Origin: Candidatus Terasakiella magnetica
Lineage (GTDB): Bacteria; Pseudomonadota; Alphaproteobacteria; Rhodospirillales; Terasakiellaceae
Reading direction: 5' to 3'
DNA: 64,000 nt
Assembly (NCBI RefSeq): GCF_900093605.1
Contig: NZ_FLYE01000034.1
Coordinates: 1-64,000, forward strand
The position numbers and the translations under genes were made by a program. Positions 23,894 through 40,387 of the stretch are shown here, piece by piece. Below the pieces are notes generated by a model that saw nothing but the letters and a program-made list of their open reading frames with translations, ran no database searches and had not been told where the DNA came from. The first letter of the stretch is position 1. Each line of letters opens with the position of its first letter.

Positions 23894-23970
23894 GACCCCG
23901 TAGCTCAGCAGGATAGAGCACAGGATTCCTAATCCTGGTGTCGGAGGTTCGAATCCTCTCGGGGTCGCCA
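23894..23970 (+). tRNA. tRNA-Arg (anticodon CCT)
   Basis: A 77-nt cloverleaf: acceptor GACCCCG pairs with CGGGGTC, and the D arm is GCTC…GAGC. The anticodon stem CAGGA/TCCTG holds the 7-nt loop TTCCTAA, giving anticodon CCT (codon AGG). The T arm GGAGG/CCTCT-type carries TTCGAAT, and CCA is encoded. No integrase or repeated 3' end is visible nearby. Confidence 0.97.
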
Positions 23971-36632: not shown

Positions 36633-37412
36633 TTAACACAGTGAGCATGTGCTTTTAAGCATATCCATTTGCGGGGCCACGGTCTGATTCTTTTCACGCA
36701 ACCAATATGTTATGCCATTGCGCACATTATAGACATTTTCAAAACCAAAACGCATCGCCAGTAATTCAGAAGCCATGCGAGTACGGTTTCCGGTGCGACA
36801 GATCAGCATGACGCGCTCTTTTTTATCTGCGATTCGCGCCATATCTTCTGGGAACTTCGGATTAATCTGCCCATTTGCCATTCTAAAGGGAAGCAGCAAA
36901 CTGCCTTGAATCACACCCGTCTTTTTCCATTCCGCAGGGGTGCGCACATCAACAATCTTCACACCTTCTTTTAAAAGTGCTTTGACTTCTTCATTATTGA
37001 TATTTTTAAACGGTGGTTCCATCACCTCAAGAAGTTCGACTTCAAATTTCAAAGTGGCATTGGGTTGGATCACACCGCCAGCACCGCGCGGGCCATAGGC
37101 CATTTCAGGTGGGATGATCAGTTCTCGCAAACCGCCAACGCGCATGCCTTGTACACCTTGGTCCCAACCGGGAATGACTTGGCGTGCACCCAATGTGAAA
37201 CTAAAGGGACGATCACGGTCTTTACTGGAATCAAATTTATTTCCGTTCATCAACCAGCCTGTGTAATGCACACGAACCTGTTTTTCTTTCTCAGCAAGCG
37301 CCCCTTTGCCTTTAATCACATCTGTGACTTTTAACTCAGCGCTGTGCCCGACAGAACTTAAGACACTCATCACTAAGGCTAAAGAGAGGAGTTTAAAAAC
37401 AGGTCTCATCAT
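36633..37412 (-). CDS. Exported FKBP prolyl isomerase fused to a rhodanese domain
   Basis: A 259-residue periplasmic fusion. A signal peptide (about 1-24, ending GHSA) is followed by an FKBP-type domain (about 28-133, '[18 protein letters not shown]', '[16 protein letters not shown]', '[11 protein letters not shown]'). A rhodanese domain (about 138-240) carries the active-site loop ICRTGNRT, with Cys205 the sulfur-accepting residue. The tail ends 'STCSLC' (Cys256, Cys259). FKBPs isomerise X-Pro bonds and rhodaneses transfer sulfane sulfur. The pairing in one chain is uncommon and may place thiol chemistry and folding together. It lies 112 nt upstream of the YeeE/YedE gene, same strand. Confidence 0.9.
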
Positions 37413-40053: not shown

Positions 40054-40129
40054 TTGTTTCTTCCTTTAAATTACGGCCCAAGTGGTCAATCCGCCTGTGC
40101 CATTTTTCGTCTTTAAATAAGTACATACG

Positions 40130-40164
40130 AAAAAAGGCCCACTGCGGTTATTCCGCGAGGGCCT
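40130..40164 (-). terminator. Attenuator terminator between leader peptide and asd
   Basis: On the minus strand AGGCCC…GCGG (40164 to 40153) pairs with CCGC…GGGCCT (40147 to 40135), followed by TTTTT (to 40130). It lies about 40 nt past the leader-ORF stop and about 75 nt before asd. Its 5' arm (CCTCGCGGAA, 40160-40151) can alternatively pair with TTCGCGGGG (40203-40195) next to the leader stop, with one bulged G. That is the mutually exclusive pairing expected of an antiterminator. Confidence 0.85.
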
Positions 40165-40203
40165 CTTTTCGAATATACGATCCGTCTTCAGGTTCCCCGC
40201 GAA

Positions 40204-40329
40204 CTACGCTTTGGTTTTCGTAGTTGTCTTGGTCGTCTTGGAGCCGGTGAGGAGCGTGCACGCAACATCACCCGCAAAAACTTTTGCGGTCGTCTTTTTC
40301 ACAGACATGATGTTCAGCACATGAAACAT
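40204..40329 (-). CDS. Putative Thr/Lys-rich attenuation leader peptide for asd
   Basis: A 41-codon ORF, absent from standard-length gene calls. It has GGAG 11 nt before the ATG and a stop (TAG) just upstream of alternative RNA hairpins. Ten of 41 residues are Thr and seven are Lys. The tail KTTKTTTKTKA has ten Thr or Lys codons in a row before the final Ala. Inside the tail, AACTACG (40225-40219) pairs perfectly with CGTAGTT (40208-40202) across the stop codon, which would compete with the antiterminator. By analogy with thr and trp leaders, ribosome stalling at Thr or Lys codons would allow asd transcription. Alternative: a small basic protein that happens to lie there. Confidence 0.72.
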   Translation of the reverse strand: MFHVLNIMSVKKTTAKVFAGDVACTLLTGSKTTKTTTKTKA

Positions 40330-40358
40330 GTTAAGCACTCTCCAATAATCGTGGGCTC

Positions 40359-40387
40359 TTCATACTTAAAAGATTTGCATTTGTCAA
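40359..40387 (-). promoter_or_regulatory. Sigma-70-type promoter of the leader-asd transcript
   Basis: Minus-strand TTGACA (40387-40382), a 17-nt spacer and TATGAA (40364-40359) match the consensus at 6/6 and 4/6. The -35 overlaps the stop codon of the upstream FG-GAP-like gene. Transcription would begin near 40352, about 20 nt before the leader ATG. Confidence 0.7.

Follow-up and report, generated by a model that had tools for sequence, protein, structure and literature searches.

The window, by which we mean the whole stretch of 64,000 nucleotides of Candidatus Terasakiella magnetica DNA analyzed here, very probably carries in front of asd, the gene for aspartate-semialdehyde dehydrogenase, a transcription attenuator of the ribosome-mediated type, through which the availability of charged tRNA-Thr and tRNA-Lys determines how strongly asd is expressed. 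The elements follow one another on the minus strand in the order TTGACA-N17-TATGAA, GGAG, a 41-codon ORF, TAG, a GC-rich block, an intrinsic terminator and asd (Table 1), and comparison with related sequences makes it well supported that the predicted attenuator is conserved well beyond the genus. Asd stands where the routes to Lys, the diaminopimelate of the cell wall, Thr, Met and Ile branch, and the codon run near the end of the leader ORF encodes two end products of this pathway, Thr and Lys, that both lie downstream of Asd. A sequence check finds the promoter, the GGAG, the ORF and the hairpin arms exactly where a preliminary description of this DNA had placed them.

Table 1. Features of the predicted asd attenuator
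Feature	Position	Strand	Basis and remarks
Promoter -35, TTGACA	40387-40382	-	sequence; shares bases with the stop of the upstream ORF 41157-40384
Promoter -10, TATGAA	40364-40359	-	sequence; 17-nt spacer to -35
Shine-Dalgarno-like GGAG	40343-40340	-	sequence
Leader ORF MFHVLNIMSVKKTTAKVFAGDVACTLLTGSKTTKTTTKTKA, 41 codons + stop	40329-40204	-	ATG at 40329, stop TAG 40206-40204
Regulatory codons KTTKTTTKTK	40239-40210	-	sequence; Thr/Lys run conserved before asd
Region 1, AACTACG	40225-40219	-	sequence; pairs with 40208-40202; modest support (synonymous-codon resampling), weak in swap test
Region 2	40208-40195	-	CGTAGTT (40208-40202) for 1:2; TTCGCGGGG (40203-40195) for antiterminator
Region 3, CCTCGCGGAA	40160-40151	-	antiterminator 3' arm, inside the terminator hairpin
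Intrinsic terminator 3:4	40171-40128	-	U-run 40135-40130; fold z -6.48 for 40180-40125
asd, aspartate-semialdehyde dehydrogenase, 341 aa	40053-39028	-	NCBIfam TIGR01296 and NF011456, Pfam PF01118 and PF02774

The identification of the downstream gene as asd holds: its product scores 437 bits against NCBIfam TIGR01296 (asd_B), for which the cut-off is 324, and its nearest named relatives are the Asd proteins of T. brassicae (96%) and T. pusilla (93%); that of a MAG labelled Methylocystaceae falls between the two, at 94%. Within the genus, four congeners carry TGGACA or TAGACA at the -35 position with the identical 17-nt spacer, and AGTATG around the -10 is invariant in the alignment of six sequences. 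A consensus promoter scan does not list TTGACA-N17-TATGAA, because its -10 lacks the final T. A Shine-Dalgarno-like motif stands at some candidate start in 34 of 42 leaders, a count made without a control, and is absent from every candidate start in two members of the genus (L003 and L004). Elsewhere on the minus strand of the window (36633-37412), a single ORF joins an FKBP-type peptidyl-prolyl isomerase domain and a rhodanese domain, according to Pfam.

A recount agrees with the earlier reading of the leader ORF: 10 Thr and 7 Lys codons among its 41, with the tail KTTKTTTKTKA. The ATG and the frame are kept across the alignment of six genus genomes, in four of which the leader has 41 codons or one more. 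Among non-independent pairs of these six congeners, the leader frame shows 92 synonymous vs 84 nonsynonymous single-base codon differences, and the other two frames show 37/143 and 40/148. The leader frame thus bears a coding signature that supports the prediction of a short translated ORF upstream of asd. In L005 and L006 the leader stop codon is changed and the frame extends for five more codons, through region 2, which there encodes LLAR / LLVR. Inside the leader ORF lies a further hairpin, CCGCAA..TTGCGG (40272-40289, minus strand), whose arms are kept in the six genus sequences; it may act as a pause hairpin for the polymerase or simply reflect the coding sequence. Several leaders, by no means all, have a Cys motif (ACA/ACT) ahead of the Thr/Lys run.

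The conservation of this arrangement was surveyed over the 450 nt that precede asd, in 60 same-order regions (from 59 genomes), 117 usable regions from other orders and 76 named loci. The strict test called for an ORF with its stop 330-50 nt before asd and, within the final 25 codons, a stretch of 10 with at least 4 Thr, at least 1 Lys and at least 6 Thr plus Lys. Such an ORF is present in 24 of the 60 same-order regions, including 6/6 of the genus, and beyond the order in 9 of the 117 regions of other orders, as well as in 4 of the 76 named loci. Over 40 rounds of dinucleotide shuffling, the means are 0.1/60 for the order and 0.075/117 for the other orders, with a maximum of 1, and the reverse-strand control gives 0 and 1, respectively. 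The runner-up residue pair, Thr/Arg, which shares Thr with Thr/Lys, reaches 10/60 order regions, and no pair comes nearer. The stop lies 105-160 nt upstream of asd in 23 of the 24 positive order regions. The conservation of the ORF in relatives, which the preliminary description had proposed as its own test, is accordingly borne out by 6/6 genus genomes plus 18 further regions of the order.

The strict test is failed by 36/60 regions of the order and 108/117 regions of other orders; four of the strict negatives (L009, L030, L149 and L156) look like weak members. By motif, a LeuB-like C-terminus lies within the 450 nt before asd in 16 of the 36 order negatives vs 2 of the 24 positives, and therefore the switch seems to accompany asd where this gene forms its own transcription unit. 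With respect to sampling, duplicates were removed from the named loci (L032, L033 and L034, identical upstream to L004, L005 and L006, and L037, identical to L015), L202 was excluded as too short, and one duplicate pair was retained, L108 (named) and L229 (class), both negative. For the other orders, 118 regions were read, of which 117 entered the counts; they come from 117 of the 180 genomes that had a match, and the remaining genomes of the 180 are mostly second genomes per family, or those with low-scoring or unlisted matches.

The involvement of Lys calls for separate scrutiny, since Thr alone might be sensed, with the Lys codons serving the need for an A/C-rich, unstructured run. In the last 14 codons of 32 strict leaders (one of the genus), Thr codons outnumber Lys codons about 2:1 (192 vs 84 of 448), as would suit this alternative, and the tail of L030, TTTTTTPTG, is Thr-only. 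The other A/C-rich codons, however, are nearly missing from the same 448 positions (Asn 1, His 1, Gln 3), in leaders chosen to contain at least one Lys. A selection blind to Lys, demanding only at least 5 Thr in 10 codons and a stop 170-80 nt before asd, yields 34 of 254 regions, in which Lys is present in 32 of the 34 windows of 10 codons and accounts for 67 of the 130 non-Thr residues, Asn for 0. Because Lys is frequent and Asn near-absent, Lys seems to be more than a side effect of A-richness, and we regard sensing of Thr alone as unlikely. A genome with two asd copies (G040) has one copy (L146) with a Thr/Lys leader, KTTTTTTKTTRV, and the other (L030) with the Thr-only tail given above.

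Runs of this kind are not in themselves enriched in the genome of the window: eight successive Thr, Lys or Asn codons occur at 10 places (13 matches), and the reversed-pattern control gives 24. Within this one pattern search of one genome, the asd leader is the sole clear Thr/Lys-rich small ORF among the 10 places; the other Thr- and Lys-rich match, L270, lies within an ORF of 523 codons but in another frame, and the remaining non-asd matches were assessed from the letters only. A second Thr/Lys leader before the homoserine dehydrogenase gene, hom, was considered and rejected, a long ORF ending ~45-50 nt before hom; the Thr/Lys/Asn pattern has no match on the contig of hom in this genome.

The terminator that had been proposed at 40164-40130 is present, and its hairpin is longer than first drawn (Table 1). 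A consensus terminator scan does not list it, because the loop between its GC arms exceeds the limit of the scan. For structural comparison, 39 leaders were used, the 37 strict ones plus L009 and L089, added by eye. A hairpin of dG <= -17 kcal/mol followed by a U-rich tail (at least 4 U in 9 nt) comes after 31 of the 39 leaders, compared with 2.5 in shuffles, upholding the claim that the hairpins are conserved in relatives. At a loose limit of -9 kcal/mol, the counts are 34/39 and 20.5, so that hairpins of this kind are common by chance; five leaders (L029, L089, L095, L119 and L217) have no such hairpin even at this limit. These comparisons support the prediction of an intrinsic terminator between the leader and asd.

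The antiterminator is a comparative case, because in this one sequence it is not significant: the 2:3 helix alone is not above shuffles (z -1.27, 22/200 shuffles as good). The pairing of TTCGCGGGG with CCTCGCGGAA was located correctly in the preliminary description; in the fold, however, the partner of 40203-40195 is 40160-40152 rather than 40160-40151, giving a helix of 9 pairs, two of them G-U, that replaces an earlier drawing of 2:3 with a bulge. In many families, one reads by eye a stop codon, GCGGGCC, a spacer, GGCCCGC, a loop, GCGGGCC and Us. With GCGGGCC both after the stop and downstream, region 2 thus copies the 3' arm of the terminator and would compete for the 5' arm. Arms that have diverged generally remain complementary: in the genus, CTTGCGAGG-like blocks pair with CCTCGCGG, and L116 and L134 have GCGGCC/GGCCGC/GCGGCC. 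The best 2:3 duplex begins 0 to +8 nt from the leader stop in 25 of 34 leaders, with 3.1 expected from shuffles; region 3 of L007 is misassigned in this count and correct in the hairpin table.

The match between partners was assessed by swapping them among leaders. In 32 leaders chosen by eye, the mean 2:3 energy is -18.8 kcal/mol for native and -15.5 kcal/mol for swapped partners, and 0 of 20000 permutations are as low, both for the 32 leaders and for a reduced set of 19. A repeat with all 34 hairpin-bearing leaders and a set of 21 again gives 0/20000, and the 34-leader result is 0/20000 whether the stop of L005 and L006 is shifted or not. In 7 of the 34 leaders, including L116 and L208, the native partner is equalled by more than half of the swaps, so the signal stems from the remaining leaders. 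Within the genus, 39/39 cells of the 2:3 helix are paired, with three one-sided changes and 0 double changes, and all shuffles score alike; there is therefore no covariation at this level, and of the compensatory changes anticipated in relatives, the fit between 2:3 partners is found and double changes within the genus are not. Arms were compared by anchoring in scripts, a mixed MAFFT alignment having misplaced the genus arms. Together, the comparisons support a predicted 2:3 antiterminator that is exclusive with the 3:4 terminator.

These results also bear on the possibility that the small ORF encodes a working small protein and is followed by an ordinary terminator, the two being uncoupled. 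The middle of the peptide, KTTAK-FAGD-ACTL, is indeed conserved in the genus with synonymous changes, as one would expect of such a protein. Across families, however, most of the peptide varies while its Thr/Lys tail, its spacing from asd and arms 2, 3 and 4 are retained, and the 2:3 partners match each other in the swaps, all of which makes an uncoupled small protein highly improbable.

The third pairing of the attenuator, 1:2, is the weakest. A small hairpin is present at the end of each genus leader, in a register that varies and slides between species. With resampled synonymous codons as the control, 0.05 is reached by 8 of 32 leaders (combined p 3.7e-6, some rows being related), and in the partner-swap test, 3 of 32 leaders are at 0.05 or better. 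A putative 1:2 protector hairpin over the regulatory codons is thus weakly supported; of the three pairings originally claimed, 2:3 and 3:4 stand, on swaps and shuffles.

Under the attenuation mechanism that we propose, when Thr and Lys are ample, the ribosome would reach the stop codon and cover region 2, and the terminator would form. When Thr or Lys is scarce, the ribosome would stall earlier in the run, masking region 1 and leaving region 2 free; 2:3 would then form, and the RNA polymerase would continue into asd. If the leader is not translated, 1:2 would form, with termination as the default, which is the least certain step of the scheme. In L005 and L006, with the stop five codons later, the ribosome would read through region 2, which fits the model. 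Stalling, antitermination and the physiological role are what we infer from these elements.

A second layout is seen in the G215 family, of which 30 genomes from 29 genera were surveyed: 13/30 pass the strict test and 16/30 are positive by a relaxed reading, which adds L286, L293 and L303, judged by eye (L291 lies outside the alignment). The layout resembles that of the Rhizobiaceae MAG L089, which suggests that the G215 family is Rhizobiaceae. Leaders of this set (L278-L303, for example, L299 and L301) show a Thr/Lys leader before asd, several with an AAA-loop hairpin at the leader end. A CU-rich block follows, with two possible GA-rich partners, and, in folds made without a shuffle control, can pair locally or with the GA-rich block nearer the asd start; no U-tract terminator is seen after the leader stop in the G215-family leaders examined. 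The predicted Thr/Lys sensor is common to both layouts, and the predicted output device differs. It is a tentative generalization, for which the odds fall somewhat short of even, that many alphaproteobacterial families share one Thr/Lys asd sensor with two output devices, the expression platform having been swapped and the sensor and target kept. Terasakiella and its order would use the terminator/antiterminator, and the Rhizobiaceae-like family would use a long-range helix that has no U-tract, ends close to where asd begins and works on translation or via Rho.

The mechanism of attenuation is classical: the his, trp, ilv and leu leader-peptide attenuators share the mechanism and anatomy proposed here, with other amino acids and operons. 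In enteric bacteria, thrL regulates thrABC by means of Thr and Ile codons. To our knowledge, Lys-sensing leader peptides are unusual, and no asd or Thr/Lys leader is known among the attenuators of this classical group. The Thr operon leader (RF00506, thrL) resembles the asd leader of the window in having end-product codons in a leader peptide and a 2:3 antiterminator vs a 3:4 terminator, and differs in that here a single branch-point gene, asd, is preceded by Thr and Lys codons. By Rfam score, the asd leader is a non-member: the full-length RF00506 model over 40247-40127 yields 17.5 bits (E 0.94), below the gathering score of 55. At gathering score, Rfam finds in the window only a tRNA at 23894 and nothing near asd, and a relaxed search returns five sub-threshold matches, among them mir-154, the best and surely a chance match in a bacterium, with Thr_leader second. 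Thus, a metabolite- or protein-binding leader (riboswitch or T-box) with a fortuitous ORF, for which the stable fold of the whole leader (z -4.96, better than all 200 shuffles) might be adduced, is scarcely credible.

The closest precedent is SEP5 of S. meliloti, a sORF whose 3'-terminal part holds six Thr and three Lys codons; it lies in the 5'-UTR of a gene called 'aspartate dehydrogenase' (PMC10117765), which is probably asd. SEP5 has Ribo-seq and Western support, was termed possibly a leader peptide in 2023, and is stated to be conserved in Sinorhizobium only (PMC10117765). Judged by this description, the window and its relatives resemble SEP5 in carrying a Thr/Lys cluster at the 3' end of a sORF before asd; they differ in that the available text of PMC10117765 gives neither a terminator nor an antiterminator, and the window has both predicted. 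The name asd does not occur in the main text of PMC1273637, PMC4833913 or PMC2965389. The preliminary description, which knew of no described Thr/Lys leader for asd in alphaproteobacteria, is thus to be qualified by SEP5, the one relevant mention found. Apart from this hint, the dual Thr/Lys asd switch and its breadth appear undescribed in the open-licence PMC literature.

If the present reading is correct, SEP5, a translated S. meliloti sORF whose role has so far been guessed, gains a testable function, and Thr/Lys leaders are suggested to reach well past Sinorhizobium. The asd leaders may also serve as cases for studying the separate evolution of a sensor and its output device. By registering Thr as well as Lys codons, such a leader would amount to a gate with two inputs at the Asd branch point, both read by a single ribosome.
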